From positions 885,194-949,193 of the forward strand of contig CM026432.1 in assembly GCA_014871385.1 (NCBI GenBank): DNA of 64,000 nt. The letters are read 5' to 3'. This document shows, in pieces, positions 1 to 21,429 of this stretch (position 1 is the first letter of the stretch; every line of letters begins with the position of its first letter). Both the position numbers and the translations under genes were made by a program. This stretch comes from Ceratodon purpureus. Taxonomy: Eukaryota; Streptophyta; Bryopsida; Pseudoditrichales; Ditrichaceae. The notes below the pieces were generated by a model that saw only the letters and a program-made list of their open reading frames with translations, had not been told where the DNA came from and searched no databases.

Positions 1-300
1 TTTACAATCCCAGCCGTCGAATTCAAAGATTATGAACCGCTAGATGTAACCGCTGACCTTCGTTGGATCTTTTTTCCATCATCCACTCGATTTTTTCTTT
101 TTTGACCACACGATGTTTACAATCCCAACCGTCCAATTTGAAGATTATCAACCGCTAGATGTAACCGCTGACGTTCGTTGGATGAATTCCGCCACCACCG
201 TTCGATGCTTGCTTTCCTAACCGTCGGATCGTTCTGGCGCGGGTTTACATATTGCAATCTCAGCCGACTGTTGGAGTCGACGTCAGCCGTCCGATTCCGC
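1..300. repeat. 115-bp tandem repeat with CCGTC-type motifs
   Basis: About 68 bp at 1-68 recurs at 116-183 with few changes, a period of 115 bp. A short motif of form RCCGTCSRATY occurs near 12, 127, 219 and 285, with a variant near 197. A third diverged relative of the repeat start (TTTACA...CAATC) lies near 243. Clusters of short subterminal motifs are known from CACTA elements, where they bind the element's own protein; that role here is inference. Confidence 0.6.
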
Positions 301-941
301 AGAATGCATGCGAATTTTTGTGCAGAAATGACGCGAATACTATCTACACGCACTGCATCCCGAAACTTTTGCTGAAAATCCGGAAAGAGGAACATATAGC
401 GGCATCCAAATCTGTCGCGTAGTATCTCCTATCCTGTCGACACGTGGTCGTCGTACGCGAATCTTATCCTAGCAGAGTCGGTGTAGGTGATTCTAATGCG
501 GCGATATTTCGAGAATTCAGTTTTGTCTAGCGTTCCGTTTTGCGGATAGTATACGATGTGCCACTCGAGCGGGAGGTTTTGTAGCGTAGCGCTTGTGAGC
601 ACACACTGTGAAATTTGAAGAGGGTGTGTGAATTAACCTGGATGACGGGGATTACTGACGACAGCCAAGATGAGACATGAGATGATGCCAAACGACACTT
701 CAAGTAGTCTTTTATTCCCGACATGCAATTGAGATCGTACATTCAATTTACACATCTCCGATCCGAATCATGGAGTATCTGCAAGGAAGGGGCGATTGCT
801 TACCTCCACTAGATGTAGATGTGGTAACCCCCTTCTACCTCTAATGTCAATCAGACAACCTGGTAGCCCCTCCATACAATCCGGACACGGTGAAGTGGAC
901 AAGCATTCGAACGCCACCATTTGTAACGGGACAGAACTGCT
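301..941. other. Noncoding stretch, probably subterminal transposon DNA
   Basis: No open frame here looks like a protein. It lies between the left repeats and the last exon of the minus-strand gene, so it probably holds that gene's 3' untranslated region and terminator. Confidence 0.4.
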
Positions 942-3900
942 CTATGCAATTTCCAATAGGTAGTCCGTGTTCCACATTACCCACGTCGCGTTCTCGCTGC
1001 TTGTTTCCAGCGCGTCCTCGAGCACCCGCACATGTCCCTGCTTTCCTGCGTACATCGGAGCAACGCCCTGTAGGAACACGTCTTGCACAAGCACCCACTG
1101 CATGCCTGGTTCGCATGGCCTGTCACGAGGGAGTTTGGACTTCTGAATCTTATAGTGTGCCCCTGCCCGTCCTCTCGCCACAGCTCGTCCGTAGTGTTCT
1201 GGATGCAAAACCCAAACGTCTTTGTGCATCCTCACTGGGTCCTGCACGACGTTGTACGAGTAAGTTTCGCAATGAGTGTCAACCTTCACCCAGTATGTGG
1301 GCAATTTGTGAGATGTATAGTGAACATTCCATCTCGCTTGATCAATCGTATGCTCAGTGTTCAGAGTTCATATGATGGGTGGAGCGAACATTACCTGCCC
1401 ACTCCTAGGAGCCAAGGTCTGTGTTGGATCGCTTTCCGCGAGACGCCTCGGTCGTCTCTTCTGCCTCGACATCTTCTGCGACAGTTCTGTCAGCGCCTGC
1501 TCTACTTCCCGGTCTTCGTCCACGCTATGTCCAGTGGTGTCTGCCGCATTCACGTCGTTCACTTTCTGACGCCTCTTCCTCATGTTCCCCGCTCCTGGCC
1601 CGCCAATGTCTGCAACTCTCGCATTTGATATTCCATCAACGGGCCCTGTCCAGACACACCGCCACCCCCTTAGCATGGATCAGAACTATACTGTCAACCG
1701 GATGTTCTGTTAGTTCAGAATATGGTGAGGTCGGAATTCGGTTCTGCGTATCACTTACCGTCTAAAATGTTTTCGGCGACGTTTCGCTCCATCTGCACAT
1801 TGTCATGAACAGAATTTCCCGGCGTTGGTGGGTCGCGTACGACCTCGGCGATGTACTCTACATCCATTCCACCTGCTGCAGTTCCGACTACGAGATCGGA
1901 AAACCGCACGGTATCCGATTCGATGAGTGCGTCCACTGTTGGAAGCGGCGGGGTCTGCAAAAGAGTCAGTACGTTAGATTCACCTATATCGGACTCCGGC
2001 GATTGCGCGTACGATTTCGAAGAACGGAAAATGTTGGTGTCGACGGGTATGTTCGACGAGATTGGCGTTCTGTCTTTCACTGACAGTTCCTGAACTGCCG
2101 TCGTTAACGCTTCTATCTGACGCTTCATTGCGTTGCATTCCGCCACTTTACTCGAAACCGTCTGTCGTGTAAGTTCGCTCTCTGTCGCCAACTCTGCAAA
2201 CTTGTTTTTCGTGTCGTTCATTTCGATTAAGGCGGCGTTCAACTCCTTCCTCAGATTCGCCACAGATTCAGAAAATGTAGCACTGCCTCCAGAACCAGAG
2301 CTGTGGTTAACGTTTACCATTGAAGTAGGGGGTGTCCCCATCCTTTCGGCCACTAGGGAGGACGCCGGGGAGTTGTCACCGTAGACACCGTCGTTGGCAT
2401 GTACGTCTACTGATGCTCCGATAGAGGATTCACCTTGTGTGTAATCGTTATAATAGGTATCCTGCGAACAGTCATTGTCGTCAATCTTTAAAACAAGCAC
2501 TCCAGTTGAGAAAAGGATACTACCGTGATGTCAGCGGGCTATTAATGTACGTCCTGTGCATGTTCATCCCACTTTCCGAAGCCTCCCAACAACAAGTCAC
2601 ACATTAACTGCTGGAGTGTCCACGTAAACTGCACCTTCGCATTCATACATCTAGCAGTTCTATCTTGCTTACCTCGTTATCCGGGTCGTCCTGGTCCATT
2701 ATACCCTCCACAACATTTGCACGCTGGGACGCATTCCTCCGCGGCGCCCCAGGGCGTCGTTGTCGCCGGACAGTAGACATGTGCTCACTCTCTACTATGG
2801 ATGCATCAGAGGACCACTGAGCCACAAAGGTAGAGTACCGTTTTATCGGGCACTGGGGATGTCTTTCCTTCTTGATAATCCAGTGTTTGCGCCATTGGTA
2901 CCTGCTCCAACTGAGAGCCTCCTGTAGATAAGTTTTGATGTATCCCTCTCGAAGCGGTGGGTCGAACGTGAACTTCGAGTGGACGTCTAGCTCTATGAGT
3001 TGGAAGGCCATTGGGGAGTGCTGGTTGAACTCTCTCACGCTCACATCCAAGACACGCCCCGCGACGTCTCTTATGGCTCTATGCAACACAGATTTCAGTC
3101 CAATCACGTCCCCCGAAGCATCCGTCGGAATAACTGTCTTCGCGTCTGGTCCATTCTGACCTCGTTGATTACGGTTGTATTCATTTCTCTCACGTCGTTG
3201 GGCGTTCCGCCGATGGTTGGGGCTGACCCCAGTGGTGGGCGAGTACACAGCTCCAGGAGGCGGCGACGTCCTAGACGGTGACTGAACACCCCTCGCGTGG
3301 ACGCCAGGATGTTCGCCATGCCGATTCCCGCCGATACCAGGATATTGCAACATCCGAGCTGTAATGTCTCCAGTGTCCGCGCTGCGTGTTGGTGTTGCAT
3401 GCCAGCTCGTGTTTGGCGGCAGCAACTCTGTGTGCCCCGGGCCGTCGGATGTTGATGCCTCATGGAACGACCCAGATGTCCTCCCAGCCAGAGGGGTGTA
3501 GTCCGTCTCAGAGGACCGGTGGCCGAATCGGACAGCATTCACATTACCTCCACGGTGAGTGCCGTGCTCCCCGCATGCGTCGACGTGCATATTAGCCGCT
3601 ATTACCTCAGGTACTGCGGGACCTGCTGTCGTCTTACCTGCTTGGGCTGCCGTGTACATCTTCATGGCGGCATGGAAAAACGGGTGAGACATGACAGCAG
3701 CCATGGACACTGCCATGTCTTCCATACCTGGTCCAACTGGCCCGGCATGTCCAGACATTGGAACCGGACGAGGCGGGACTTCGTTGTTCGCCAAAGAAGA
3801 TATTCCCTGCGCATGGAGACTCCCGGCAATAGCCATCACGTCCGCGCTCTGCGAAGTTGCAATAATACCACGCCTTGTTCATGGAGCTGGACAATGATGA

Positions 3901-4060
3901 CATTGAAGTGCACAACCGCGAACACATGTATGAATTTTGCGTAAGTAAGGAAAGCTATGAGATTGTATTATGCATACATCACCCATTCCTATGACAAATG
4001 CAGAGGATATACATAACCCGGAATCGAACTTACTGCACTGCACTCCCCCGCGTACGCCAT
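942..4060 (-). CDS. Ptta/En/Spm-like transposon protein, five exons
   Basis: Proposed exons on the minus strand are 4060-4034, 3848-2673, 2485-1759, 1645-1395 and 1352-942. All phases close, giving about 863 residues. The large second exon has a Gly/Pro/Arg-rich N-terminal part. It is followed (about residues 245-390) by a domain resembling the plant Ptta/En/Spm transposase family: a conserved FDPPLREGYIKTYL stretch, a WRKHW motif and a later QWSS motif before a basic tail. Exon 3 contains a heptad-like coiled coil (about residues 473-538). The last exon has a compact Trp/Tyr/His-rich segment (TYWVKVDTH) that I do not recognise. In CACTA elements such proteins bind subterminal repeats and help the tnp2 transposase; that role is inferred. 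The ATG at 4060 has good context (AAATGGCG), but the open frame continues upstream without an ATG, so another 5' exon is possible. The gene is divergent from the F-box-like gene at 4714. Confidence 0.6.
2542..2646 (-). CDS. Short ORF inside the intron of the Ptta-like gene
   Basis: This 34-codon frame starts at an ATG overlapping the read-through stop of the large exon and has a protein-like composition (FTWTLQQLMCDLLLGGFGKW). It lies wholly in the proposed intron 2672-2486. It could be an alternative exon, a separate small gene or chance. I do not recognise it. Confidence 0.2.
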   Translation of the reverse strand: MNAKVQFTWTLQQLMCDLLLGGFGKWDEHAQDVH

Positions 4061-4713
4061 TTCCCTGGTCGACTCAGAGACTGCTCGGAGGAGACCTTCT
4101 GCGACGATAGAACCTGGCACAAGCGCTTCGAAGACGGCGAGAATGGAGCCTCGTCTGGGACAAGAGGTCAGGGAAGGAAGTGCCTTCTCTAGATTATCGG
4201 GGTAGGCACTCTTAGTCAACCTCAGTTAACTCCAGTTCACACAACTGGGCATCCTTTACTTTCGGTACACCTCGGCGAAGGCAGTCGTCATTTACGGTTC
4301 ATATCCCCTGATTAATCTGCGCCACTGAATGCTTCGCAAATGGCTCTCTGGACTGCAGTTCAATCCACACATGTGGAGACTAGGGACGAACATGTGTCCA
4401 TATCAAGTTTTCCAAACCTGCGTGATGTCAAGCTAAAGCAATGGCCATTTTCATGCGCACTATCTGATGTTCCCCTAACCGTTCCTAACTCGTGGAGAGG
4501 TTTACCTGTTTGGTCGGCATCGCGGAGGGGATCACATCGCGTTGCAGCGTTGATAAGGTGCGATTATGTACTCGACATGATTCCATTATAGACTACTGGT
4601 TCCCTCACATACGTGTTGTGTCACGTTCACCTTGTTTGCGACGTTGACGTCGGTCCTCCTAGAAGTTACCTGTGTCTGATTTTGTTTTAGGGTGAGAGAG
4701 TCGTCCTCCCGGG
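4061..4713. promoter_or_regulatory. Divergent intergenic region
   Basis: This stretch separates the 5' ends of the minus-strand Ptta-like gene and the plus-strand F-box-like gene, so it must hold both promoters. An open frame on the minus strand up to about 4219 continues that of the first Ptta exon without an ATG. An acceptor-like TTTTGTTTTAG ends at about 4691, just before the ATG at 4714, so the F-box-like gene may have a 5' leader intron. I see no clear TATA box. Confidence 0.35.
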
Positions 4714-5154
4714 ATGGCGATTGCAGGTCACATTTGTGACGAGGAGTCTGAAGACTGGCTAGTGGGCGATGGTCAAGTAGCGGTAGAGGACTACTTACAG
4801 TCCGTGCACGAGCACAATCATGCACTGGCCTTGAGAGACTCCGGCGTCCCCCTCCCCGATGGTCACTGCACCGGCGATTTGCCGATATCGTCTTTGACAT
4901 TTTTAGATAATTTGCCGCTGGATGTCGTGTCGAAGATAATATGGCCCGCTGTAATGGATAGTGGATGCCACCTACAAAATTATCGTACTTGTTGTGAACT
5001 CCGACGCGTATCTTCAGGCTGGAAGGAGTACGTGGAGAGACAAAGAGAATGGACACTAGGGATGGTGGCTAGTGCCCGTCATAAACAGTATGTGCAGGAC
5101 GTTCTCTACGCCGATCTCCAGAGATTACGATGCCGGTTACGTCCTGCATTTTGA
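4714..5154 (+). CDS. F-box-like protein, copy 1 (transposon cargo)
   Basis: This single-exon frame encodes 146 residues. An acidic N-terminal part (EESEDW) is followed at about residues 65-115 by an F-box-like helical block: LPLDVVSKIIWPAVMD, then YRTCCELRRVSSGWKEYV. This has the LP-x-D/E, hydrophobic, LR-V-S/C and W pattern of F-box motifs, which dock on SKP1 in SCF ubiquitin ligases. No substrate-binding repeat (LRR, Kelch, WD) follows, and the C-terminal tail is short and basic. The same block recurs in the gene at 19376, so the two are paralogues inside one element. F-box identity rests on pattern resemblance only. A DNA-binding or other helical fold is possible. Confidence 0.5.
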   Translation: MAIAGHICDEESEDWLVGDGQVAVEDYLQSVHEHNHALALRDSGVPLPDGHCTGDLPISSLTFLDNLPLDVVSKIIWPAVMDSGCHLQNYRTCCELRRVSSGWKEYVERQREWTLGMVASARHKQYVQDVLYADLQRLRCRLRPAF

Positions 5155-5846
5155 AGAGACGCGAAGTAGGACTCACAACAGAAGCTGGGTCAAATTAGGA
5201 TATATAATCAGATCGGTTCGAGAAACGTAATTTGCATACTACATGTGAAGTAGTATCTTCTCTGCTCTGTTCAGTGTTCAATAGAAGCTAGAACGCATAA
5301 CGTTCACACTGCTCGGACGGTAACTAGTATTAGGCCTTTCTAGATCCTTCCTACGCACACCACGTGTTCAATTCCCATGTTTACAATCTGAATAATTAAA
5401 CGGCCACGATGTGCCTATTCTAGGTCAATTGACACACAGCTCTGTACAGTACTTTCTTTTTGGGTGCGTGTACGTGTTTTGTGTGGAGCTGCCCGTGCCC
5501 ACTGTTTTAAGAGATACAATGTTGTCCGCGCATATGCTTTTCTCCATTCACATTTTATATTCACCAATTGGGTCTGTATGAGCTTTCTACGACTGTAGAG
5601 TGTCAAAACCCTAGGTCGAGTTGAAGATATCGATTCGAATTGTGCGCTGTAGGAATGGTTTTGGGTTGATTGGAACTGGGTTGTAAGCATTCTGTATTGG
5701 GGTTATCTCAAGAAGTGCGCCGGATCCGACGATTGTGTCCACGTTTTCCACCTCTCACTCGTCGCATTTTCCACTCTCCGCTCGTTGTTTGTATATGGGA
5801 CTGACGTTGATTTTAAATTTCTCTGCAACAGCATTAGAGGGTTGCG
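5155..5846. other. Intergenic, promoter side of the transposase gene
   Basis: No convincing coding frame. It contains the 3' flank of the F-box-like gene and the upstream region of the tnp2 gene. An antisense frame at 5415-5690 has no recognisable features. Confidence 0.35.
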
Positions 5847-8800
5847 ATGCCTCCAAGGCGCACTCCGGGGAGGCTCCCGTTAGAACACATTGCGAGACAA
5901 AGAGATAGGGATAAAAAGCTGTTAGACAGAGAAGTATTGAGGGCACGTTCTGCTGGAGTTAGTCGGATTCGATGTCCTTGCCGGATATGCAATCGCGGAG
6001 TGCGCACACTATATTCTATCAAAACATTTGTCCGCCACGTCCGAGAGTATGGGTATCATCCGTGGCAGCGGGGACCCTCGGAGGTAAGCTTATTTCCAAT
6101 GCGTGTTGCGGTTATCCTTCTGAAGTGTAAAGATACGGCATTACCTGAGTCATTCTGCACACATAGGGTTCCACCGCGATGTTTCACTAAGTCCTGCTTC
6201 CACTTTAATACCTCGAAATGCACTAAAGTCGACTTGTTCCCCAGGGATACGATCAGGATGATTCGGATGGGGAGTGGGAGGCTCATATACAGAGTGAGTA
6301 CGGAGAGGTTTCAAGGAGGGAACAGGAATTTATGCGCGATCCGACAGTGGCCAACGTCGATGTGAATCAGATGTTGCGGCAGACCTTCGGATTCTGGGAC
6401 GAGATGCAGCCCCCTGCTGCAGATGGTGCAGATGAACATGATAACATCGACCCTACGCATGAGACTGATCTATACCCTGAAGACACAGATGCCAGGGTTC
6501 ATAGTTCATACGATGGTGGCGACAGTGTAGAAGACTCTGCAGGGAGTGAGCCAGAGTTTGACACTGAAGACGACGAGGACTTTGAGTGGGGCGACCCAGA
6601 TGCAATGGACCAGGAAGTAGCAGCACATATGGAGCGCATAGAGGAGGTGGCCAGGGTACCGTTGTACGAAGGGTCGAAACTGTCAAGCTTGGAGGCCACT
6701 ATCCTAATGCTCAACCACCATAGAGGAAACAATGCCACGAATGTCCAGATAGACCAAGCCTTCGCTCTGAATCACAGGGTACTTTTGCCGCAACCCAACA
6801 CGTTGCCGGACTCCGAATACGCAGCATCTCTGATGTTGAGCAAGTTAGGTCTGGATTTCAAGTGTATCGATGTATGTCCGAACAATTGCATCCTCTACAG
6901 GGGTGTGTACGCTGAGCATTCGCTGTGTCCAAGTTGTGGTTCTCCTAGGCGCAGAAGACACGGGAACTCCTGGGTTCCTCAGAAAGTTCTAAGGCATTTT
7001 CCCCTTGGAGAGAGATTGAAGCGTATTTTCCGTAGCCCGCTGATGGCAGCTTCGATGACTTGGCATGCTCGGGAGAGACAATCCGATGGCATGGTCCGGC
7101 ACATTTCAGAATCTAAGCACATGGCTGACATCCGAGAGAAGGAACCAGAGTTTTGCAGGGACCCCCGGAGAGCATTTTTCGCATTGGCCACGGACGGCAT
7201 GAACCCGTTTTCAGAAAAGCGAAGTGTCTATTCCACGTGGCCGGTGACTTTGATGAATTATAACCTACCTCCGTGGTTGACCACGAAGCGTTACTGCATC
7301 ATTCTATCTCTTTTGATCCCTGGTCCCAAAGCCCCTTCTGGTGACGACTTCGACACTTTCATTGAACCGTTGGTCGAGGAGCTGGAGGTTCTCTGGCGCG
7401 ATGGTATCATGATGGAAGATGCTGCTCGTTTTCGAGGCGAGAGGTATTTCCATATGAAGGCGATGCTAATTTTCTGTATCCATGACTTTCCAGCCTATGG
7501 AATGGTCGCAGGTTGCGTTACAAAGGGTTACCAGGGCTGCCCAATCTGTGGTCCCAACACTGTGTCGAGGAGGTCCCAGTACTTAAAAAAAAATGTCTAT
7601 GACGATCAGGCTCGTCGTCACCTCCCACAGTCCCATCCCATGCGTGCAAACGCCCAAGACTTTCGAGGTCGCGTGGAGCTACGATCAGCTTCTCCGAGAT
7701 TGACTGGTGCGGAAGTTCTAAGCTACGCTGCTCACAGACAGCAATGGCTAGATGATGGTGGACAAGCAGGCGCTCCTGGAGATCCAGTTCGTGTCACGGG
7801 AGTCAAAAGGCGCTCAATACTTTTCCGACTCCCCTACTGGGAGGTAAGGCATTAAACCATCAGTTAACCCTATATCGCACATCAGTTTCAGTGGAGTCAA
7901 CTTGGAGTTATATTGTCATCATGTCTGTGTAATACATTGTACATTCTATTCCATCATTGACTCTATGATGTCTGACTATTTCGATTCCCATGTTTTTCAG
8001 AAATTAAAAATACGCCACACGTTAGATGTTATGCATGTGGAAAAAAACGTGGCAGCAAGTGTGTTGGGGTTTATCATGGGCGAAAAAGACACTGTGGCAT
8101 GCCGAAAAGACATGGAGGCTATAGGTATAAGGCAGGAGCTACATCTGCAACCTAGGCCAGGGGCGGGGAACTTCATAAAACCCCAAGCACCGTACTGCCT
8201 GACACAAGCTGAGACCGTGAAGTTCATGAAGACTGTTCGGTCTATAAAAGTCCCTACAGGTTACAGCTCGAGCTTGACTCGAAATGTTAGCGAAAAAAGA
8301 TTCCAGGGCCTGAAAAGCCATGACTATCACGTTTTGATACAGGACATTCTCCCAGCAGCGATCCGTGGTCTCTTACACCCTGGAGCGCGGGACGCTGTAA
8401 TTCGTCTAGGGAACTGTTTTAAAAAAATATGTGCCAAGTACGTGGATCCCGGCACCATAGGACAACTCCAAGAGTATGTAGCGGAGACAATGTGTCTTCT
8501 CGAGGTATGGTTCCCCCCCGCACTATTTGACATCATGCCCCATCTGATGCTTCATCTCGTGGAGGAATTAGATTGGCTAGGGCCCGTTCACTCCAGGTGG
8601 TGCTACGGCGCAGAGAGGTACCTGTACGTTTTGAAAAAATATGTCAGAAATCGAGCCAAGCCGGAAGCATCAATCGCTAAAGGGTACCTGTATGCGGAAT
8701 CCCTTGGTTTCATGAGTGAGCACTTATCACTATACCCTGGACACGCGAAGATATATGACCCCGAAGACAATGAGCGTAACAACGGCGAAGTTCTGGAGGG

Positions 8801-10075
8801 AGCTGCAGTGAGATTAAATCTCCCGGAGAACGAGCTCCGCGCAATTCACGAGTTCATAATCTGCAACCAGAAGACCACCGAGCCCCTTCGACTGTAAGTT
8901 TGAGTGGGATTTGACATGTTTATTTCAGAGGCGAATGTATACAGTAACTGTTTTGTGAAATTGATGAGCATGTTATATGTTAGTCGGATCATGAGCTTTA
9001 CTTGTCTAATGATTCTGGGAAGTGGTTGTGGCTCTCAGAGAATATGAAGAGGCCAGCAGACTTCACCGATCTCGCCATCGGACTCGTCCATTTGAGCCCT
9101 TTTCGAGCTGGTTGGAAATGCGAGTGGATAACATGCGAGCAGCGCATGAATATGTTTCTCCGGAATTGCGTAACCTATCTCAGCTTCCTCTTCCCGTGGT
9201 TCACGAACACAAACGCATGTGGGCGTTCGGGAACCATTACAGGACGCAGGACCCGGTGATGGGGAACTCGTTTGAGACTTTCGACTCAGGCGTTGGATGT
9301 GTGGCTGCTACTCTGTGCCAAGCATCCGCTTCCGACCAACGGCCGGTGGAGGCGAACCTAACATATGTTGGAATATTGCGCCGCATACTACAGGTCAATT
9401 ATGTTGTAACCCAAATCAATGTGATGGAGTGTAGTTGGATTAAACCGAATGTTGCTGGTAACCCAACTATAAAACAAGATGAGTACGGTTTCTGGACGTT
9501 CCAAAAGGACGCCTTTCAAGGGCCTCGTGCAGAGCCGTACATCCTACCCGTTCATGTGACTCAGGTGAGCAATTTTAATCCTGCCGATGTTCATTTATAG
9601 GCAGTGTCGAAAGTGTGTCTTCAACTCCTGTTGGTGTCGCACACTACCGAATGAGATATGTCATCGTCTTGTACAACGGATAACAGGATCCAGCCACCAT
9701 GTGTTACAGGTTTTTTTTGCCGAGGATCGCGACAGACCCAATTGGATGGTCGTCATACAAAAGGAACCGCGATCTCGACGGGTAGAGGATGATAGCGACC
9801 AGTATGTCATTGGAGCCGGTGGTTTGGAGTCTCCAGTGACTTCCGAGGATGGCGGCGGTGCCGACTTGCGTGGACACAGAGGAGAAGTCCCTACCGGAGA
9901 GACTGTTGCAGTCGAAGTGGTGGCCGCGGTGGATGATTTCAGAGAGCCCCCGTATGCCGCTGATCCACTTGCAGCACTCGATCATGTAGACGACGACGAC
10001 GAAGACGACGTAGAGGGCGACGAGGTGGAGGCAGACGACGAAGACACGTCCCAGGCTCCATTCTCTTATTCGTAG
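5847..10075 (+). CDS. tnp2-family CACTA transposase, intact, five exons
   Basis: Exons are 5847-6083, 6245-7843, 8001-8893, 9039-9564 and 9710-10075. Phases close exactly to a 1206-residue protein with no stop or frameshift. Domains in order: a transposase-associated Cys-rich motif (CPCRICNRG, near residue 45); an acidic linker; a CxxxC...CPSC region near 287-311; the tnp2 core; a DUF4218-like segment ending around SLGFMSEHLSLYPG; and a DUF4216-like segment split over exons 4 and 5 (VFFAEDRDRPNWMVV). Candidate catalytic acidic residues are in TDGMNPF (about 395), HDFPAYG (about 493) and LDVMHVEKN (621), the usual places for the DD(E/D) triad. The C terminus is a strongly acidic D/E tail. The protein should bind the terminal repeats and cut and rejoin the element. 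Intact coding capacity suggests recent or continuing activity. Confidence 0.9.
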
Positions 10076-10658
10076 TTGCCCACTTGCACTCCACTTAGGT
10101 GTCCCCCTCGGTACAGTACTTCCACACCAGTGTTGATGAGTCAACGCGCGAGAGGTACAGCAATCGTTTAACACCATATAATACGGTGTAGGATTTAATA
10201 TTGGAAACCAAGTATGCCACGAGAGTGTCCATCGCTGTAACTTAGGACAACGGCGGCGCAGATGAGGTTGAGTGTTAGTACATGTGGATGCCAATTCGGC
10301 TTCCGTCGATGATATAAAAACTGCCTTTCCGTATGTGAAGTTGTCACATTGTGTAAGACGAATTTGGCAGACATCCGTGATTGCATTCTGTGCATGTTCT
10401 TTACTGTCGACAAACATGGTGTCATAAAGGAATGTTGAGGATGCAGTACTTTCGCTGAATATCGACAGGTGTCATTCTGGACGTGTTTTTTCCTTTCGTG
10501 ATCGTTCCATATTAATGACAGTGCAGTTGGAACCGCAGGAACTGCCGGACTAATCGGTCTTCCGTTGAAGGTGGGCGTGCAATGCGGCAGGACTACGTGG
10601 AGTACAGTCGTTTGACTGGATAGAGACGCCTGTTCAAAGACACCCACTCCATTCAGAA
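10076..10658. repeat. Transposase 3' tail, first copy of a tandem duplication
   Basis: This tail of the transposase gene resembles 11606 to about 12140. Matching blocks include the CAGTACTTCC/CAGCATTCCC area after the stop, the GATGATATAAA/TTGATATAAA block, and the CTAATCGG-CTTCCGTTGA block. The duplication joint lies near 10658, where sequence like exon 2 of the transposase begins again. No gene is seen; minus-strand open frames here look like shadows. Confidence 0.5.
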
Positions 10659-11605
10659 GTTGAGACAGGGCAGGAGTTTGCTCTCAATCATAGTATACTC
10701 TTGCGGCACCCCAATCTATCGCCAGACTCACAATACGTAGCATCTATAATGTCGAGCAAGTCAGGTATGGATCCAAAATGCATCGATGTCTGCCCCAACA
10801 GTTGCATCCTTTACTGGGGTTTGTACTCTGAGCATTTGCTGTGTCCAATTTGCGATTTTCCTCGGCGCAGAAAGAATGGGAGGTTCTTGGTTCCCCAGAA
10901 AGCCGTAAGGCATTTTCCTCTTGGTGAGAGGTTGCAGTTGATTTTCCAAAGCCCGCTGATGGCTGCTTCGATGACTTGGCATGCTCGTGAATGGCATTGT
11001 AATGGCATGGTCCGCAATACGGTGAAGACGTTCGGAAGAGATGCATTCAAGGGGCAATGCGCAGAGCCGTACAACGTTCCCCTTCATGTGACGCAGGTTA
11101 GCAATTTCAATTCCTGTCTTTGCTCATTCGTTAGGTGCGCTGAATTTTAATTTTCGACTGGTCAAGGTAGTGCTTAGTATTGATTGAAATTGGATATCAT
11201 CATGTACAACGGGTAACGAGTTCTAGCCACTATGTTTTAAAGGTTTTATTTGGCGAGGATCGTTTCGGCCCCCATTGGATGGTCGTCAGACAGAAATACC
11301 CCTGCTCGCGACGAGTAGAGCGCGAACGCTATCAGTATGTTATTGGAGGTGGAGCGTTGGTGTCATCAGTGACCATGGAGGATTCCGGCCCTCTCGAGGT
11401 GGGTGGACACAGGGGAGAAGTCCATTCCAGAGTTAGTGTGGCAGTCGAACTGGTGGCCGCGGGAGATGATTTAATAGCACCCCTCTATGTCGACGCTCCA
11501 ATTGCAGCATTAGACTACATACATAACGACGACGAAGAGGAGGTGGAGCACGACGAGGTTGAGCATGACGACGAAGACGCGTCTAATGTACTCCTGTACT
11601 CCTAG
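10659..11605 (+). pseudogene. Internally deleted transposase copy, frame retained
   Basis: 10659-11016 matches exon 2 of the transposase (from about 6743 to 7110). The sequence then jumps at about 11017-11030 to the end of exon 4 (from about 9490), removing the catalytic core. A donor at 11096/11097 and an acceptor before 11243 match the parental intron. The remaining two exons (10659-11096 and 11243-11605) stay in frame for about 266 residues, ending in the same acidic tail. The parent's three catalytic acidic residues are all missing. The copy lacks an obvious start codon and first exon, so it may be a remnant, or it may encode a truncated regulatory product. Divergence from the parent is substantial, so the duplication is not recent. 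Confidence 0.7.
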
Positions 11606-12140
11606 TCGATCTGTTACACATCGCGTAGGTTCCCAACTTGGTGCAGCATTCCCACATCGAGGTCGAATGAAACACATGATCGGGCGATTGTACATGTTAA
11701 ATGCCACATGAGATCGAGTGATGGTACATATGGATGCCGTCTTCGCGACATCATTGATATAAAGATTGCCTATTATTATGTGACATTGTCTGCATGTTTG
11801 TGAAGAACTAGTCGAACAACTAAGATTGCACTCGATGCTGCTCGGTTTCAGCCGACGAAGGTGGCAAAGAATATACAAGATGGCAGCAAGTGTCATAATG
11901 GACGTGATGCTTGAACTCTGTTATTTTGGAGCTTGAAGGGGATATTTATCACAGGGAGCTTTAAAGTGGAATGTCGACAGCTGTCTTCTACGCCGAGTTA
12001 TTTCCATAATAATGACACTGCAGTTGCAACTGCAGTACCCTCCGAACTAATCGGACTTCCGTTGACGGTGGGCTTCCAAGGCGGCGACACTTTGCGGAAT
12101 ACAGTGGATGAGTTTGAGATAAACGCAAGTTTGAAGACGT
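11606..12140. repeat. Transposase 3' tail, second copy
   Basis: This is the homologue of 10076-10658, following the deleted transposase copy. Similarity is patchy but collinear. Together with the previous entry it shows that a unit from inside exon 2 to about 580 bp past the stop was duplicated in tandem. Confidence 0.45.
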
Positions 12141-12478
12141 GCCGTTATTTGGGACGCGCCCATACTGCCGATATTGGGAACTTCCGTTAAGCTGTGAAGT
12201 GGAGTTACGAGTATACCGTTCTGGGGGTCCGTTTCCTGAGATTATGAAGAAAGGAAAGGGGATTTCAAATAACACTGCTTATAATGGATTTTTCGACAAT
12301 CCATTGACATTGCAGCCTATATTATTTTTCTGCGGTACGCTCTTACACCCCATACTTTGGATGTCTACGACATTCCATCCTTTACAGCACATTAATGCGT
12401 GGACATAGTGTTGAATGCCTCCGTTTGCAATATGGATTACTGGCCTAACGTAGGAATTCCCGTTTTTGTATACCGCAG
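12141..12478 (+). other. Possible upstream exon region of the Cys-rich gene
   Basis: A frame running through about 12120-12320 has protein-like composition (CEVELRVYRSGG, then PFPEIMKKGKGI). I could not find splice sites joining it in phase to the exon at 12479. Its first ATG is near 12245. It may be the 5' exon of the next gene or noncoding. Confidence 0.25.
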
Positions 12479-13139
12479 GCAACAGTTGTTCAGATGTCAG
12501 GTTGTGCGGTATCTGTCCTCGACGACAACGGTATTCCGCTTCCGTATGGCCAGGCTGGGAATGTCAATCCATTCAGAAAGGTATGATTGCGTGTCTACCC
12601 TTTACAATTCAGATTCTATGTGTATAACTCATTTCTCAGTCATATGAGCCGTTTGCGTCATTGTCGTATGAAGACGAAGCTATCGTGAGGACTTCATATT
12701 AAAGTAGATGTGATGTGCCTGTGGATGTCAGCCTGCTCAAGTTGATCTTCGCACTAGGGGGCCGGAGAAGTACCAGTACCCACGGGATTTAACATCTGTT
12801 TGGAATGGACCTAATCACAAGCATTGTTGCAACGACTGTCGATGTTTGTTCTGCACCGCTTTGAGATGGGTGATTTTACCCCACTGTAATTGTAGGCTAG
12901 GTCGCTCCACCATTGGAATGCCACTGGACGCGCGAGTGCGCCTCAAGCGCCGGATGTGTCCTCATCTACCGAGACATAAAACTACAAAGTTCTATGAGTG
13001 CTTATGCGTATCTTCAGGTGAAGGGTGGCGGGCTTCTTTGGTGATTAAGGATTGCGACCTGACTTTGGGGAATCCATCTGGAGAAATACCAGAGGAGGAT
13101 GTTTTCATTGATTTTGAGTCCTCTTTTCGGAGCGCATAG
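12479..13139 (+). CDS. Cysteine-rich protein, gene structure tentative
   Basis: Three blocks look like exons. 12479-12580 lies between a good acceptor (TATACCGCAG) and a donor (AAG|GTATGA). 12640-12702 starts after an acceptor (TTTCTCAG) and either ends at TAA or splices at 12684. 12732-13139 ends at TAG. If the second block splices to the third through a very short (47-nt) intron, the frames join in phase. The last block is Cys-rich near its start (HCCNDCRCLFC, then PHCNC) and has further CxC motifs (ECLCVSS), with an acidic C terminus. Paired cysteines suggest metal binding. No family was recognised and the 5' end is unknown. Two separate small genes is the alternative reading. Confidence 0.4.
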
Positions 13140-13453
13140 TAGGTTACCTTGTCCGACGATGCATCGGAGTGAAATGTCTTGCACTCGCCGGATCGTAGAT
13201 AGTAGACTTTACTCCGCATCGCATGGTTATGATTTAAGTCACGTAATACGAAGTCAAGGCACTAGATTTCCTCTCTGATATGACCATGTCTTCTACCGAC
13301 AGGATCGTGGATAATGTAATGTGCATCGTCTATAGCGTAACATGCAATGAAGCGCCTTCATACTTAACGTACATTTTACTGGTTGGTACTATAAGGATGT
13401 TCTTGAAGTTACCACTCAGGGATTACAATTACCGGCAGCAGCGATCTTTAAGC
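13140..13453. other. Intergenic spacer
   Basis: This runs between the Cys-rich gene and the tandem duplication. I see nothing convincing here. Confidence 0.3.
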
Positions 13454-14208
13454 TATGAGGGAGTGATTTCTATATTTCTTGTCTTGAAAGTTCCATACTT
13501 GTACTGATCCATCCTTGACACTAGTTTGAGAGTCTTTAAAATTATTCATGCAGTACATTGAAGTTGGTACTCTAATTGGGTGCCATGGAGTTTCTTTTTT
13601 GCAGGGCTGACATTCTTTTTCTACTGCAGCCAGGATGGAAGGACGATGGTGATGCATGCACCAAGAGAACGTGTGGGGGCGTTCAATCACATCACTGCTG
13701 ATTATTACTAAAAGGTAAGCAAATCTGACAGAATCTAGTACAAAATAAGTACAAGATCTATGCTGTTACTTGTACAGTGTACGAATGTCCGTATATACGG
13801 TTACTGTCTTCCTCTAAAGAGCCCACCGTTATCCTATAACCAGCATTTCATGCTAATTTCGAAGTGTCGTTCAGGTAAGATGTGGAGTTGCAGAGCTTTT
13901 CACATCGGCATAGTTAAGCATCCAGACACCCCCTCTTGAATTAGAGCCACCTAGTATTTGGAATCCTGATATCGTATTTACGTATTTGACATGTAGTAGA
14001 TGATGAGTGTGAAAGATGGCCTGTAGAACTTAGAAGTTACGCTTGACATTCGAAATGGACTTCCACTTCTGAACTGAACCGCACTTCCACTTTCAAACCA
14101 TGTCTGTAAAATATCTCCATATGTGGATGTGAGGACATATGCCATTTCCAGTGTCTGTTATACAGGTTAAACAGATCACGTAAACTGCCCTTGTTTTTCA
14201 CCTATAGA
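13454..14208 (+). repeat. 755-bp tandem duplication, unit 1
   Basis: This unit is repeated directly and adjacently at 14209-14980 with high but imperfect identity along its whole length. It contains a 107-bp exon-like block at 13605-13711, preceded by a strong acceptor (TTTTTTGCAG). The block is open in one frame, ending ...FNHITADYY-stop, and is followed at once by a good donor (AAAAG|GTAAGC). Confidence 0.85.
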
Positions 14209-14980
14209 TACGAGGGACCGAATTCTATATTTTTTGTCATGAAGGTTCCATATTTGTACTGTTCCATCCTTGACACTTGTTTGAGAGTTTTTAAAATACT
14301 TATGCAGTACATAGAATTTTTTACTCTAATTGGGTGCCATGGAGATTTTTTTTTGCAGGGCTGACATTCCTTTTCTACGACTGTGGGGATGGAAGGACGA
14401 TGGTGATGCATGGACCAAGAGAACGTGTGGGAGCGTTCAATCACATCACTGCTGATTATTACTAAAAGGTAAGCAAATCTGACAGAATCTAGTACAAAAT
14501 AAGTACAAGATCTATGCTGTTACTCTTACAGTGCACGAATGTCCCTATATACGGTTAATGTCTTCCTCTAAAGAGCCCACTGTCATCCTATAACCAGCAT
14601 TTCATGCTAATTTAGAAGAGTCGTTCGGTTATGATGTTGAGCTGTAGAGCTTTTCACATTGGCATAGTTAAGCATCCAGACACCCCCTCTTGAATTAGAG
14701 CGACGATTGGAGCACCTGGTATTTGGAATTCTGATATCGTATTTACGTATTTAGCATGTAGTAGATGATGAGTGTGAAAGATGGCCTGTAGAACTTAGAA
14801 GTTACGCTTGACATTCGAAATGGACTTCTACTTCTGAACTGAACTGGACTCCCACTTTCAAACCATGTCTTGGAAATGTCTCCATATGTGGAAAGGTGGA
14901 CATATGCCATTTCCAGTGACCATCTATACAGGTTAAAAAACGTCTCGTAAACAGCCTTTGCTTTTCTCCTAAAAGTATAT
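14209..14980 (+). repeat. 755-bp tandem duplication, unit 2
   Basis: This is the second direct copy. It is somewhat longer than unit 1 because of a small insertion near 14702-14715 (GATTGGAGCA region). The exon-like block is at 14359-14465, again 107 bp. Its acceptor, stop codon and following GTAAGC donor are conserved, although six codons in the middle differ without shifting the frame (YCSQDG in unit 1, YDCGDG here). Confidence 0.85.
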
Positions 14981-16220
14981 GGTAATTAACTTTTCCTAGA
15001 CAGTAGTGAGTGGAATTGATAGTGACTAACTACTACTCTGTCAAGGATTACGTGACGTATTGTGGAGCTTGCAATACTCATTGAGAATTATGATTCCAGC
15101 CGTTACAGACTGATGGTTTTGATGTTTGGAGAGTGTCGGAAATGACAGGGAACAGGACATCATGAGGAGTGGAATATCTGATGAGGAGAGGGGGCTCGAT
15201 CTCATGATGGGAGGCTCGAAGGTGGGCTACGGGAGCCATATGGTCTATCCCTAGGATCCAGCGAACAGGTGGTTCTGCCATAGACCCGGAGATTGGCGTC
15301 CATAAATTCATCACCCCCCACCAATTGCTTCCCAGTTGTTCTGTGTGGATTCATTTTCTCTGGGGTTTTGCATGTGGGTGTGTTGCTTTGCCTGCGCATG
15401 GTCATTCCTTGTGGTAATTACACCCGTTGTCGTTCATGGGTCCAGCTGTTTGAGGGCAGCTTTGTCTTCGCTATTACGCACTTGTTCGTTATCTGTCCCC
15501 TTCTCTATCGCAAACTATGACTTTGGCGAAACTGGGTTCCGCAGGAGTACGTAGGGCATAGAATGTTTGCGAAATTCAGAGAGGGTCTGAGACGCATTCG
15601 TGTCTTGCGAACATAGCCGGCACAATTTGTAAGTAGAATGGTTGAGTGTTTGAAGGGAAACTGCAAGCGTTGTGGTCGATAGCTAACCGGGACATGGGTT
15701 GTGGGTTTGGGCCACGCTGATAGAGTTACAAGCCTGGAGCTTGAGGTCTGAGCCTGTGCAGCAACTCCTGGAAGAGCAACACGATTTAATCTTAGCCGAG
15801 GAAGACAAAACGAGGCCTTCGCGTGGAGAGCAGCAATTGTGGCTGAAGGTGAGTATGAGAATTTGTATGTTTGGTAGGGTCAATTGCACTCTTTGTGGGG
15901 TAGAATCTGCTGGTGCGTTGACGGCATTGTAAGTGGAGGTTCTGTAAGTATGTAAGTCGAGGTTCTGTAAGTATGTATCCAAAAGAGATTGGTTTTTCAA
16001 TGCTGCTGGAGTTGGGTTCATGAGGTTCGCTGACATTGCGCTCCGTGGTCGTTTAAGCTAACATCAGAATTCCCTATTGTATACCACTGATACGTTCGTA
16101 GTGCATTAGCGACCGTACATTTATTTTTTCTGTTGAAGGACTCCGTGTGCTTAGTGCTGTAGTCGGTGGGAATGCTGCTTGCAGGTTGGCATCGGAGTTT
16201 GCAAAACCCATTAATCGACA
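14981..16220. other. Spacer with one possible exon (about 15717-15848)
   Basis: Most of this stretch shows nothing convincing. About 15717-15848 on the plus strand looks coding (VQQLLEEQHDLILAEEDK) and ends at a good donor (AAG|GTGAGT). It could splice to an acceptor at 16184 (CTGCTTGCAG), after which the frame stops within nine codons. I could not find a start codon or an upstream exon. Confidence 0.3.
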
Positions 16221-18257
16221 ATGGTATGCACGCGCGGAATGAGGGACACATGGGCTGTTCCAGTACCCGCGTCGGTCAAGGAGGAACCAGATCGAAGCGA
16301 AGGATCCATTTGGTGGTTTCATCACGATCAAGGACTTAATTGCCATGGCGTTATCCCCGGTACGAACCTGGGAGATGAGCATTGCTCGAAAGCGGAGTAT
16401 GTCGCGTTTTGGGGGAAGAAGAACTATCACAACGGCGGTAGATATAAGAGAAGGGTATCCCCGCGAATGGTTCGCCGAATCAGAGGTCTGTACCAGCGTT
16501 GCTTCCAACGACCAATTGGAGCGTCTGATTCAATACCGTACCACTTTGGACGGGGGCTGCTGGCAGAGCGTAATGGACACCCAGTGAATTGGGCCGCCTA
16601 CGGACGCAAAATGACCCACAGGGGGACGGGGGACACAGCGCATCTGGGAGACAACCTGCGCCAACCTGGGGAACTACGGCGAAAGGGAAACGCCTTCGAA
16701 TTTCTGTCCATGGAGGAGCTTCGAAGGACCACAAGGCCAACTAAGTGGCCTAAAAACGAGGTGGGGTCGGATACTGAGGACGAAGAAGGGCACCTGTCCG
16801 ACTGGGACGTGAACGTTATGTTTGAACAGGACTCCGAAGATGTCACGCAATACGTTCGAATGACCGCAGATACTAGGGAGGCGACGGTTCAGCAAAGAGG
16901 TCCTCCACCAGATGATGTTGTGCCTACAACTGTGGACTCATTTGAAGGTATGGATAGCCCTCCTGTAGGTCGTTTTCTGTACTTATGGCATCCAAAAGAG
17001 AAATGGGACTATGTTAATGGACGAAGATGGATATACTACCTTGGCTATCATATAAATTTCAAACACGTCTTTATCATCGCGTAAGATAATGTGGTTAATC
17101 AAACTACATGGAATTGCAACAGGTACCGAGACTCCTCAAGCAGGACACTCTGTCCCAGCTGGAGAAGATGTTCAGGAGATCGGGCAGAAGGTGCTCTGCA
17201 CATGTGGCGGGAAACGCCCTAGATCACTCGATGCCCCGGTGAAAACAGAGGAGCTAGGAGAATCAACGGCAAAGGTATTCGCCGGTAAGTAAAATTAAAA
17301 ACGGTTTGCTACTGTAAAACTACTTTGCATTCTGCCGGAAGTCCAAAGGAGTGTCTTCTGAATAACGCAATTGAACACCATCCGCAGGCGGGGCACCAGC
17401 AAATGTTCGCGTGAAGAGGGAGGTGGAGTCGAACGAGGGTATTCCGGTGAAGTCACTTCTATCCGCAGGGGGGGATGCAGCTCATCACAGTGTGTATCTG
17501 CAAAAGTCGGCGGCGACAGGTAAGGGATGGAACGGTCAGAATTCGCCCAGTGGGAGCTCCAGTAATCATACACCGTACACCTTTGCTTCCATCCGCTTCA
17601 AATTTCACCAGACTGAACCGCAAATGAACACTTTAAAGCAGCGAAGGATAGACTTACTATCATTGCATGGATGTGTAGATACTAACACTCTGCGAATGGG
17701 CTTGTGCAGGCAATCGAACGCTGTCTGAGGAGGAATCGTTGCGGCTGGATTACTGTCGGAAGTATGTGGACTCCAAAATCAATCGGGGCGTAGAGGTTCA
17801 CAAGAAGAAGATGGACCTGCTGAAGAAGACACACGCGGAACTCGAACTGTCCATAGCGAAAATGAGAATGGAGGATCTTCGGGCGGAGCATTTCAGAAGG
17901 GAATACGAGATGGAGCAAGCAGTTAGCAAGCACAAGAAGAAGGGGGCGTCAACTAGCCGTGCCGTCGAGGCTAGCCCGGGCGAAATGGAGGCGCTAATGA
18001 AGAAGCTGGAGGCGGAAGAGATTGGCACACAGGCATGGGCGAGAAGTCGTACATTGGCTGCCAAGTTCCATCTCATCGAAGGTGAACTCCGCACATTGGA
18101 GAAGATCATGTCCACATGGGTGGAGAATCCGGAGGTTTACATAGAAACTCTGTTCGAGCTTCTAACAAGCGACCTCGTGGAGTTCGAGAATGCCTTTCAG
18201 TTGGCGGGGTTAGACTGTAGGTGCAGCGACGCAGAATGTGAATTCCCGTTTGAGTAG
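16221..18257 (+). CDS. Coiled-coil protein, four exons, transposon cargo
   Basis: Exons are 16221-16947, 17123-17284, 17388-17519 and 17710-18257. All introns are phase 1 with GT-AG ends, and the frame closes to 522 residues. The start ATG follows an in-frame stop (TAA upstream), which supports it. The N-terminal half has a Trp/His-containing globular-looking part (SIWWFHHDQG, later VSPRMVRRIRGLYQRCF, NGHPVNWAAYGRK), then an acidic region (SDTEDEEGHLSDWD). The last exon is a highly charged coiled coil (about residues 368-420), followed by a helical C terminus ending in a small Cys cluster (DCRCSDAEC). No family was recognised. Its position between transposase sequences and the CACTA right end makes it element cargo. 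A role in DNA binding or oligomerisation is only a guess from composition. Confidence 0.75.
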
Positions 18258-19375
18258 GTGATGCACATCAACATTTGTAAGAAGTACACCGTGGTTGCAA
18301 CATCCAACGTGAAAACATGGCTCGTGGTTGTAAATAGTCGAGAGTTGTGTAGTTTGTTCCCTGAACATAAGTTTTGAAATGCTTTGAAGTTCGCGAAGGT
18401 GGGTCACACTCAAAGTGCGGCAACATATGATAGAGCGATAGTTTCCTAGACCGCTGTGAGGTAGAACCTGGTCTGGAATTACAATTGGGGCTCAGAACTA
18501 TACCCTATTCTTTTGTAAAATTTTCATCACCTCAACTGCAGACGCCCATGCTGGGTGTCGGTTTTGTATTAAGATGATTACCTGGGCGTTTAAGATATAA
18601 TACGAGCAGACTTATGCAATGTTTAATTTTTAAAAAACTGTGTTGCAATGTTTGCTTTCATCGCTATGCATTGGTCGAAACGATAATGAAGACCCTGAAT
18701 ACAGTCGGAGACACGGTGGGGTGGAAGATGTTTTACAGAACCACGCATGGATCTCACCTCAGAATTGACACATGAGGGAGATCTTGAATGCCCGTAAGTC
18801 TGCCAAATACAAACCCATAAATCTGTGGCACTGTATCAAGCACAATCCGGTCACTTGGAAAAACACACTCCAATCCTCAATTCCCCTCTACATTCAAACA
18901 CAGAAATTCCCAACACCAACATTAGTTGGGTGACCGCTGCAATACTGCTCGCGATATGGGAAACTCCATATGGCACTCGGATGGGAAGCTTAACTGCCCT
19001 TTCGCGACAGATGTAACTTGGCCCCACCTACCTGCAACTTGAGTTCCTATTAAAGCAGGCCCTTAGAGCGCGGATGAGGCACCTCGAGCGCCGCCCACTG
19101 AAGTGCACAAACAACACAATGGCATCGCAATCCCATTATCGAAGGGACATGGCTGCAGCAGCGGACTCTAAGTCAGGTTAGTCACTTCCATCGTAACCCA
19201 CTCTCACCCGTTCAGCTACATTGATTTTATGTTTGTGCATATATCGTTGTAGACAACGTCACCGAGCTCTGTCAATGCCTTGTGTTACACAATCTGTTAC
19301 TCTGTCTTGTATTCGCCGCGAGAAGGTGTTGACACAGTCTACTTGGGTGATGTAGGAAGGTAAAAGTACTCCATC
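18258..19375. other. Intergenic, with promoter-like sequence for the second F-box-like gene
   Basis: This is mainly noncoding. A TATA-like TATTAAAG near 19049 lies about 70 bp before a short frame starting at 19121 (MASQSHYRRDMAAAADSK), which ends at a donor-like CAG|GTTAGT. This could be a leading exon of the gene at 19376, but I could not join it in phase, so it is left unassigned. Confidence 0.35.
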
Positions 19376-20011
19376 ATGGAAAACTGCGATTTCATACCGT
19401 ATGAGCTGTACGAGGCAGGGGTGAAGAGCAAGTTCTGGTCGAACATGTCCTTGATCATACACGATGATATGGCGTGTATTTCCGAGAGCTCAAGGCTTCG
19501 CATGGAGAGAAACCTTATGGAAGAGGAACAGCGTCTGAGATCAGTTCCCCAAGGTGAGAGAGTGGATATGTTCTCGCAGGGTGTGGAATCCTTTCTCCCC
19601 GAGCTCGGAGAAGACATTGTCCTGACATCGCTGTGGCCAAAGCTTATGGACGGCAGTACAAAGGTTGCGAACTTCCAAACGTGCTGCCATTTGCGGTCCG
19701 TATGTTCGGGGTGGAAAAAGTTTGTGGAGGACCGTGATGAATGGCAGAAGGGCCTCCTATCATGGTCTGCAGGGGAACATCGCAGTTGGCAAGTGCTCCC
19801 TGTGGAGTACGTAGAGTGCCTGCAGAGGAGGACAGATTCTGAGTCAGCTGAGTCCGAGGACGGCTCAGAATACGAAGAGGACATAGCGCTCGGCTCAGAA
19901 GACGAAGTGGGCATTGCCGACGGCTCAGAAGACGAAGGTGACATAGCTCCCTTCTGGGATGAAGCAGAATTGGAGTCGCAGTCTTCACAGAATGACACGA
20001 GGGATATGTAG
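19376..20011 (+). CDS. F-box-like protein, copy 2 (transposon cargo)
   Basis: This frame encodes 211 residues. Residues about 75-125 repeat the block seen in the gene at 4714: LGEDIVLTSLWPKLMD, then FQTCCHLRSVCSGWKKFV and DEWQKG. Shared positions include the WP-x-x-MD, TCC-x-LR, SGWK-x-x-VE and EW residues. Beyond it is a long acidic tail with repeated GSEDE units (about residues 155-205) that copy 1 lacks. It resembles an F-box domain with an acidic tail and no substrate-recognition repeats. It lies 780 bp inside the CACTA right end, in the same orientation as copy 1 and the transposase. An upstream coding exon is possible. F-box identity is inferred from pattern. Confidence 0.55.
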   Translation: MENCDFIPYELYEAGVKSKFWSNMSLIIHDDMACISESSRLRMERNLMEEEQRLRSVPQGERVDMFSQGVESFLPELGEDIVLTSLWPKLMDGSTKVANFQTCCHLRSVCSGWKKFVEDRDEWQKGLLSWSAGEHRSWQVLPVEYVECLQRRTDSESAESEDGSEYEEDIALGSEDEVGIADGSEDEGDIAPFWDEAELESQSSQNDTRDM

Positions 20012-20772
20012 AGACCTAGGAACGGCCAAAATTATGACATTTGTGCCCGTGACATCAACATTACGTTGATATCAATTGTACCTTCGTAATCACATTAATT
20101 GAAAGACATGGAAGCCACTTGTCCATGTATCCTTGCAGAAACAGGAAACCCCCAGTGTTGCAAATTTCATGCGGTTAAACTGTCCTTCACAGCCAGAATG
20201 GTGTATGTGCACAGAAGGTGTGGTGTTTTGAGACGAGCAACTCCACCCCAATGTTGGTAATGACGAGGTCCTCTTGCTTGTGTGACATCTCGATCGCCTA
20301 GTCCACGAACTTAGAGAAACGTTATGTACAATATGAACCAGCCAATGCCGAAGAACGAGGTCATTTCCCATCTCCGGAAGTCACTGAAAACAATACAAAC
20401 GCTGCCCGGGTGTGTGGGTAACGGTAAGAGTGAAAAACATCAGCCGAATACCCCGACCCAGGTTACAAATTGAACCCAATGACTTCGCAAAAAACTACCT
20501 GGTAAACTTTTGTACACATTTATAACCCCATCCAAGTATCGCGACACGGGACATAGTAAATCTACATCTAAACCTAGGTAACTCACACAGTCGTATGATC
20601 TGAAGAGGGTAAAAAAATCGAACGATACCAGAAGACAACACATGATATAGCACTGTGAATGGCGGGAACGCAAACGCAGGTCCGATAGAACAGGGACATC
20701 ATAAAATGGGGGTACTTTTTCACTCCGACTGGAGAAACAGTGGAAAGGGACCTCCACAATGGAGAGAAAAAT
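20012..20772. other. Right subterminal region of the CACTA element
   Basis: No convincing coding frame between the second F-box-like gene and the terminal repeat. I could not identify an obvious repeated subterminal motif by eye. Confidence 0.4.
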
Positions 20773-20790
20773 CCCGTTTTTCTACTAGTG
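20773..20790 (-). repeat. CACTA right terminal inverted repeat
   Basis: The plus strand reads CCCGTTTTTCTACTAGTG, whose reverse complement CACTAGTAGAAAAACGGG matches the conserved start of plant CACTA terminal repeats (CACTA followed by a short A-rich run and G residues). The three bases after it, GTG at 20791-20793, would be the right copy of a 3-bp target duplication. The matching left copy is not in view. Confidence 0.75.
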
Positions 20791-21429
20791 GTGCTTAGTA
20801 AGTGATGTAGGATTTGACACATTGGAGTTTGTATAAATGTCTCAAAGCTGATCAGGGAATGGAAGTGTTCAACATCGTGTGTTACACAGCTTTCAATCAT
20901 TGCGTAAACTTATTTTTGACGCACACCTAGAAGTTATGTGTTCGGCATGTTCTTTATAGTGCTTTGGAGATTTGAGGTACTGTTTGAATTTTATCGATGG
21001 CTTTGCAGGCTCTGGCTTTGTGTTTCCCTGTTTGTTTTTTTTTTTGGGGGGGAGGGGGCGGCGGCGCGGGGAAGAAGGGGACGAACAGTTCCTTAACGCA
21101 CCGAGGAGGCGCTCTTACAGCGAAAGGGAGTCTCCGCTATCAGTGAAGTAGTCTCTCTCGAGTAAAACAGTTGTAGAAAAGAAAATCAGTTGTGTGCACT
21201 CCTGATTGGCAACTTGCAAGGTTTCTAAATTTATCTAACTTGTTTTTGCACATGCCAGCAACTCGGCAAGGAGTACAGGATCTTGTTGTTGATGCACGAA
21301 GAAGTAATATGTTGAGATTTAATTGAGTAGCTCAACTGTTGAGGCGAAGTGATTTTGATATTGCGCTTACGTCCTTGTTCCCGGTCCAGAATCATGTGCA
21401 ACGTCTACTATACAATAATTGTAGTCAAA
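20791..21429. other. Host flank of the transposon
   Basis: Noncoding. It includes a poly-T tract running into a G-rich, purine-rich stretch at about 21030-21085. Confidence 0.4.

Follow-up and report, generated by a model that had tools for sequence, protein, structure and literature searches.

A recurrent family of F-box-like genes, kept under selection, is carried as an accessory by some CACTA elements in one genome, that of the moss Ceratodon purpureus. Its members recur in many places, hold a conserved position in the mapped elements, fall into A and B clades and are under purifying selection in most of the pairs compared. Two of them, here called gene A and gene B, lie in the window, by which we mean the whole 64,000-nt stretch of DNA that was analyzed (contig CM026432.1). 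The first-pass annotation had placed these two open reading frames at 4714-5154 and 19376-20011, at opposite ends of a single transposon, and both are present there.

The transposon is a CACTA (En/Spm) element, G000:C12:884796-905983, and its length of 21,188 bp follows from the GTG target duplication that flanks its left and right termini. The left terminus, CACTAGTAGAATCTGTG, is found at G000:C12:884796 with GTG just before it, 398 bp outside the window, and the part of the element inside the window (1..20790, unstranded) is delimited by the termini and the GTG duplications. The right terminus, CACTAGTAGAAAAACGGG, is located at 20773..20790 on the minus strand, has the 11 bp CACTAGTAGAA in common with the left terminus and is flanked by the right copy of the 3-bp GTG target-site duplication at 20791..20793. 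The assignment to the CACTA superfamily is based on CACTAGTAGAA at both ends, the 3-bp target-site duplication and a Tnp2 transposase matching PF02992 above cut-off. Thus, both genes do belong to one transposon. Their placement at opposite ends fits gene B, which ends ∼0.8 kb from the right terminus, but not gene A, whose start, flanked by a TnpA-like gene and Tnp2, is ∼5.1 kb inward from the left terminus.

For comparison we mapped ten element copies, picked for holding the domain and belonging to about five lineages: elements A (the window element), B and C; D and E; F and G; H; and the high-copy elements I and J. In the window element the TnpA-like gene on the minus strand is followed on the plus strand by F-box-like gene A and Tnp2, and then by a partial Tnp2 repeat, a third gene named G3, F-box-like gene B and the right end. 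The TnpA-like gene (942..3839, minus strand) consists of ORF pieces at 2643-3839, 1751-2500, 1368-1676 and 942-1304, and a Pfam scan of it returned no family above cut-off. Elements B and C have all four pieces, arranged in the same order, and the first piece is also matched in elements E, F, G, H, I and J and in a stretch at C9:2.44 Mb. A 3,514-aa open frame at C9:2443968 was discarded as an assembly gap. Gene A (4714..5154, plus strand) encodes 146 aa with the domain at 4897-5052. The Tnp2 transposase (5847..10075, plus strand; PF02992 E 5e-63, DUF4218 E 5e-30) has five predicted plus-strand exons, each open in one frame, at 5847-6083, 6245-7843, 8001-8893, 9039-9564 and 9710-10075; the end of the third exon at 8893 was set by inspection, with a frame-keeping GT one base after 8892. 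A partial second copy of Tnp2 pieces (10677..11583, plus strand), with DNA identities of 79% to 6761-7098 and 72% to 9495-10050, is likewise found in elements B and C. G3 (16221..18257, plus strand; ORF pieces 16221-17084 and 17739-18257), in which a Pfam scan found nothing above cut-off, is present in four mapped elements, recurring in B, D and E; its dN/dS between elements A and B is 0.25, though the matched stretch in B has two stops. Gene B (19376..20011, plus strand) encodes 211 aa with the domain at 19589-19744 and an acidic tail.

A second copy, at C12:446422-470091, has CTT on both sides, aligned pieces that are 71–94% identical to the window element, and both F-box-like genes. Between these two elements dS is 0.10 for gene B and 0.39–0.68 for gene A, Tnp2, TnpA and G3, and the right end is 89–94% identical vs. 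71–85% for the other aligned pieces. As gene B and the right end differ in this way from the other pieces, ends may have been exchanged between elements. A tandem pair of ∼755-bp units, 89% identical, was also seen inside the window element (13451-14971).

The two genes had been read as paralogs on the basis of a shared block, and the residues of this block are exactly as described (WPAVMD/WPKLMD, TCCELR/TCCHLR, SGWKEYVE/SGWKKFVE and a common EW). BLASTP bears out the paralogy, with 25 of 58 residues identical (43%) without gaps and an E-value of 4e-17 for a single comparison. A blastn self-comparison of the window (E up to 1e-4) listed no DNA match between genes A and B, from which we conclude that the paralogy is old. 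When both proteins were compared with the window using tblastn, no further match better than E 0.087 was detected. In a quick tree of 81 columns, A-type and B-type genes form separate clades of 10 rows each, with SH-aLRT values of 97 and 99. The absent DNA match, together with the separate clades, rules out a recent duplication within the element that turned one gene into two.

To find further members we searched the genome (362.5 Mb, one genome) with genes A and B as queries. At least 150 places were scored per query (the best 150 of 452 candidates for gene A and of 475 for gene B). Among the matches listed, 146 of 150 were stop-free by eye for the gene A query and 126 of 150 for the gene B query, which gave longer matches. 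From 68 loci, some of them overlapping, and the window we obtained 66 ORFs with the domain, corresponding to 56 distinct proteins. Scans of viral contigs and genome contigs found no relatives.

The position of the genes is conserved. An F-box-like gene is located upstream of Tnp2 in all ten mapped copies, and in nine of them it sits between Tnp2 and a divergent TnpA-like gene; for element D, no TnpA was found in the fetched part. Upstream of Tnp2, two F-box-like genes are present in each of elements F, G and H, while in elements A, B, D and E gene A is upstream of Tnp2 and gene B comes after G3, near the right end. Among the matches listed, and compared with all 83 Tnp2 places, 13 of the 17 closest A-type genes (57–100% identity, the window's gene A counted) have a same-strand Tnp2 1,094–1,451 bp downstream. 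The chance of finding Tnp2 at such a spacing is ∼0.0003 per A-type gene. The remaining four comprise two with Tnp2 at 18 and 51 kb and two without a nearby Tnp2.

One CACTA element is present in high copy number (L023, L024); its F-box-like gene appears, by eye, with one and the same score at ∼64 of the best 150 matches listed. Matches to this element occur on many chromosomes as well as on small contigs. Identity between two copies that were compared is 99.96% across 6,973 bp, which indicates a recent burst.

The F-box-like gene is an accessory that is gained or lost among elements. Among the matches listed, and counting A-type genes only, such a gene lies no more than 3 kb upstream in just 13 of the 81 long Tnp2 places, which identifies it as an accessory module. 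We also read 11 other Tnp2 loci directly: five drawn from the 150 best places for PF02992, five that are more closely related to the window Tnp2, and L079, which has an apparent internal deletion. No domain was found upstream of Tnp2 in any of them (2.2–3 kb each; ORFs of at least 30–40 residues), and in three TnpA and Tnp2 are divergent with no F-box-like gene between them. As far as these upstream stretches go, this rules out the F-box-like gene as universal CACTA equipment, although a copy may lie elsewhere in those elements, and with the 13 of 81 places it shows that the gene is not needed for transposition there. In a tree of TnpA pieces (14 rows), three F-box-less elements fall among F-box bearers, but support for this is modest and two of the branches are very long.

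Selection on the genes was estimated as dN/dS by the Nei-Gojobori method for 29 non-independent pairs, of which seven were saturated in dS and 22 measurable. The upper 95% bound of dN/dS was below 1 in 18 of the 22 measurable pairs, in one of them barely (0.99). The four pairs compatible with a dN/dS of 1 are the window gene A vs. the copy at C6:101.78 Mb (1.02, nine changes), L033-L034 (0.56), L033-L035 (0.58) and L036-L038 (0.70). For element pair A-B we obtained 0.09 for gene A, 0.12 for gene B, 0.07 and 0.04 for Tnp2 exons and 0.31 for the TnpA piece. Pair D-E gave 0.17 and 0.20 for the F-box genes and 0.12 and 0.07 for Tnp2 exons, and pair F-G gave 0.14 for the F-box gene and 0.11 for each of two Tnp2 exons. 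The F-box-like genes are thus somewhat above the transposase level in these three pairs (0.09–0.20 vs. 0.04–0.12). In the young pair A-C the values were 0.17 and 0.28 for Tnp2 exons, 0.46 for TnpA and 1.02 for gene A. The window gene A, which has no acidic tail, is constrained relative to the copy at C12:464520. Neutral decay of both genes in all other copies, the outcome that the first-pass annotation had set against its own reading, is therefore not what we see: purifying selection acts in most pairs, and the dN/dS values rule out neutral decay as a general account. That selection keeps many of the genes intact suggests that the transposon uses them.

The domain that these genes share is probably homologous to the F-box. 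From its sequence, the central 50–60 residues are likely a divergent F-box in which the first helix and the V-x3-W core are set further apart. The family alignment comprises 46 proteins: the window gene A, which equals L001, and 45 of the 56 distinct proteins, with truncated and near-duplicate ones left out. W77, P78, W103 and W113 are invariant in it, and the LP motif has L in 41 and P in 39 of the 46 proteins. The LP motif and the V-x3-W and W-x9-W spacing agree with SKP2. The distance from LP to the first W is nine residues longer than in SKP2, and the LP-to-I spacing matches SKP2 in gene A but not in the family consensus. Compared with the F-box domain of SCF substrate adaptors (PF00646, PF12937), the moss domain is thus alike in the LP motif, the tryptophan spacing and a weak profile match, but unlike in scoring below the curated cut-off, in the longer LP-to-W stretch, in an invariant WP after the first helix and in being encoded by a transposon.

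The trimmed window domains match PF00646 with E-values of 0.014 and 0.015 (15.8 and 15.7 bits), below its gathering cut-off of 20.5 bits. In a Pfam scan of the 46 members none reached the F-box cut-off; PF00646 was nevertheless the commonest match (8 of 46 members at E up to 1, best 0.027), vs. three members for the next non-F-box families. For gene B the unrelated Melibiase_2 ranks marginally above PF00646 (E 0.056 vs. 0.076, and 0.010 vs. 0.014). When the extra loop was removed, the window domains gained ∼1 bit each, and the shortened high-copy domain matched nothing. Aligning 18 moss domains with 11 F-box segments by hhalign gave E 3.5e-4, a score of 21.98 and a probability of 37%; of these segments, that of SKP2 was confirmed by search. 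The best of 400 column-shuffled decoys scored 17.9 and none reached 21.98, column shuffling being a lenient control. No solved F-box was matched in sequence searches of the PDB. Of the F-box-like pattern noted at first, a weak resemblance in profile and in part of the spacing therefore stands, with no member above the Pfam F-box cut-off.

An AlphaFold model based on 46 sequences (pTM 0.58) has helices at residues 69-80, 86-97 and 101-108 and a block mean pLDDT of 86–92 over residues 71-120, while a model from two sequences only reached a pLDDT of 37. The structure prediction that had been proposed as a check thus places helices where they fit and is confident over the domain for the protein alone, but Foldseek and VIA-align, searched with this short domain in an all-helical model, listed no F-box chain. 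Outside the domain, the N-terminal parts are kept within subfamilies by eye, for example the first ∼61 residues of A-type genes, and several members are little more than the domain (e.g., 112–146 aa). A net acidic tail is found in 45 of 49 proteins with tails of at least 15 residues, so that a transcriptional or chromatin role would also suit them. In the window gene A and three of its close copies the tail is short and net basic, and in the other A-type genes it is acidic.

The explanation that we tentatively prefer, at somewhat less than even probability taken as a whole, is that these proteins are an accessory F-box-like family of several CACTA lineages that docks on SKP1 and redirects SCF to the benefit of the element. 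Each protein would dock on host SKP1, a step for which we judge the chances to be evenly balanced, and would present a target to the SCF ubiquitin ligase. The target would most plausibly be a host factor that limits the element, since selection on the element favors removal of what hurts it, and the two co-resident types, A and B, may have different targets or partners. The most serious competitor, doubtful but possible, is a helical domain that does not bind SKP1 and belongs to a transposon regulator. Such a protein could be an acidic co-activator or a chromatin factor that works together with TnpA and Tnp2, in the manner of VANC in VANDAL elements. The F-box scores below threshold, the structure searches without an F-box, the acidic tails in 45 of 49 proteins and the location within the divergent TnpA-Tnp2 region in nine of ten mapped copies all fit such a regulator; against it, more members match the F-box than any other Pfam family, the F-box profile match exceeds all 400 decoys, and the window gene A is constrained relative to the C12:464520 copy despite lacking an acidic tail.

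An F-box-like adaptor for the element's own proteins, tuning the turnover of Tnp2 or TnpA and so the copy number, agrees with the linkage to Tnp2 and with the absence of the gene upstream of other Tnp2 genes, as expected of an optional regulator, but a self-limiting gene would not obviously be maintained by selection on the element, and we regard it as improbable. It is hardly more credible, if at all, that the short proteins act as SKP1 decoys, without a substrate domain, competing with host F-box proteins: members of 112–146 aa would suit this, but the conservation of N-terminal parts in subfamilies speaks against it. Passive capture of host F-box fragments without function (Pack-CACTA type) has a precedent in host sequence captured by CACTA elements, as described in a review (PMC13317346), and broken copies do occur, with stops by eye in 4 of 150 and 24 of 150 listed matches. 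It is contradicted for most pairs by purifying selection in 18 of 22, and the separate A and B clades and the conserved position in mapped copies also oppose it, leaving it very improbable.

Classical En/Spm CACTA elements encode TnpA and TnpD. The moss elements resemble them in their CACTA ends, 3-bp duplication, Tnp2 transposase and second gene, but differ in the divergent gene order and in the presence of one F-box-like gene or two, with G3 in addition in four mapped copies. ULP1 is a SUMO protease. Its domain occurs in Kaonashi/KIU, Mutator-like elements among the plant DNA transposons (PMC13317346). This is a comparable case in which an accessory gene retains a host domain for protein modification, although superfamily (MULE) and domain are different. 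Neither the scanned ORFs of the element nor the 46 members of the family gave a Pfam match to the ULP1 (C48) protease domain. VANDAL21 likewise encodes an extra protein beside its transposition genes, VANC, which is an anti-silencing protein causing loss of methylation (PMC5735166). VANC-type proteins act in this way on related elements by binding specific sequences; for the moss genes such an activity would be speculation. In plant viruses, F-box-like P0 proteins act as silencing suppressors; the abstract of the study leaves open what part SKP1 has in this (PMC6593998). Polerovirus P0 comes from a virus rather than a transposon, and its likeness to the moss proteins would be one of function. 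A transposon-encoded F-box family was not named in the titles and starts of abstracts of the papers listed by our literature search, and the word F-box is absent from the main text of a 2026 review on how plant transposons capture genes (PMC13317346).

An anti-silencing role of the F-box-like proteins is speculation. The fuller scenario, in which a domesticated F-box diversified into selfish SCF adaptors, in some elements a pair of them, and these turn the ubiquitin ligase against silencing or restraint factors as a transposon counterpart of viral F-box suppressors, we consider unlikely. Of the new kind of countermeasure that had been suggested, what the evidence shows is a family of accessory genes in some of the CACTA elements of a single genome; a role as a countermeasure would go beyond it. 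Known transposon accessories include a few anti-silencing proteins (VANC) and domains captured from the host whose use is unclear (ULP1 in MULEs). If the preferred SCF reading is true, a selected, multi-lineage F-box-like CACTA family adds targeted protein degradation to the tools of DNA transposons, and it becomes testable which host protein, if any, the F-box-like proteins remove. A caution also follows for moss annotations, in which F-box-like genes that are counted may be transposon-borne.

Beyond the element, a second CACTA-like terminus, TACTAGTAGAAAAATGGA, is seen at window positions 23529-23546, and the stretch 23252-23518 is present again, inverted, at 31087-31349. Elsewhere the window has exons of genes usual for a eukaryote, among them sulfate permease, CoA-ligase, Saf4/Yju2, SMP-30-like and Ost-alpha.
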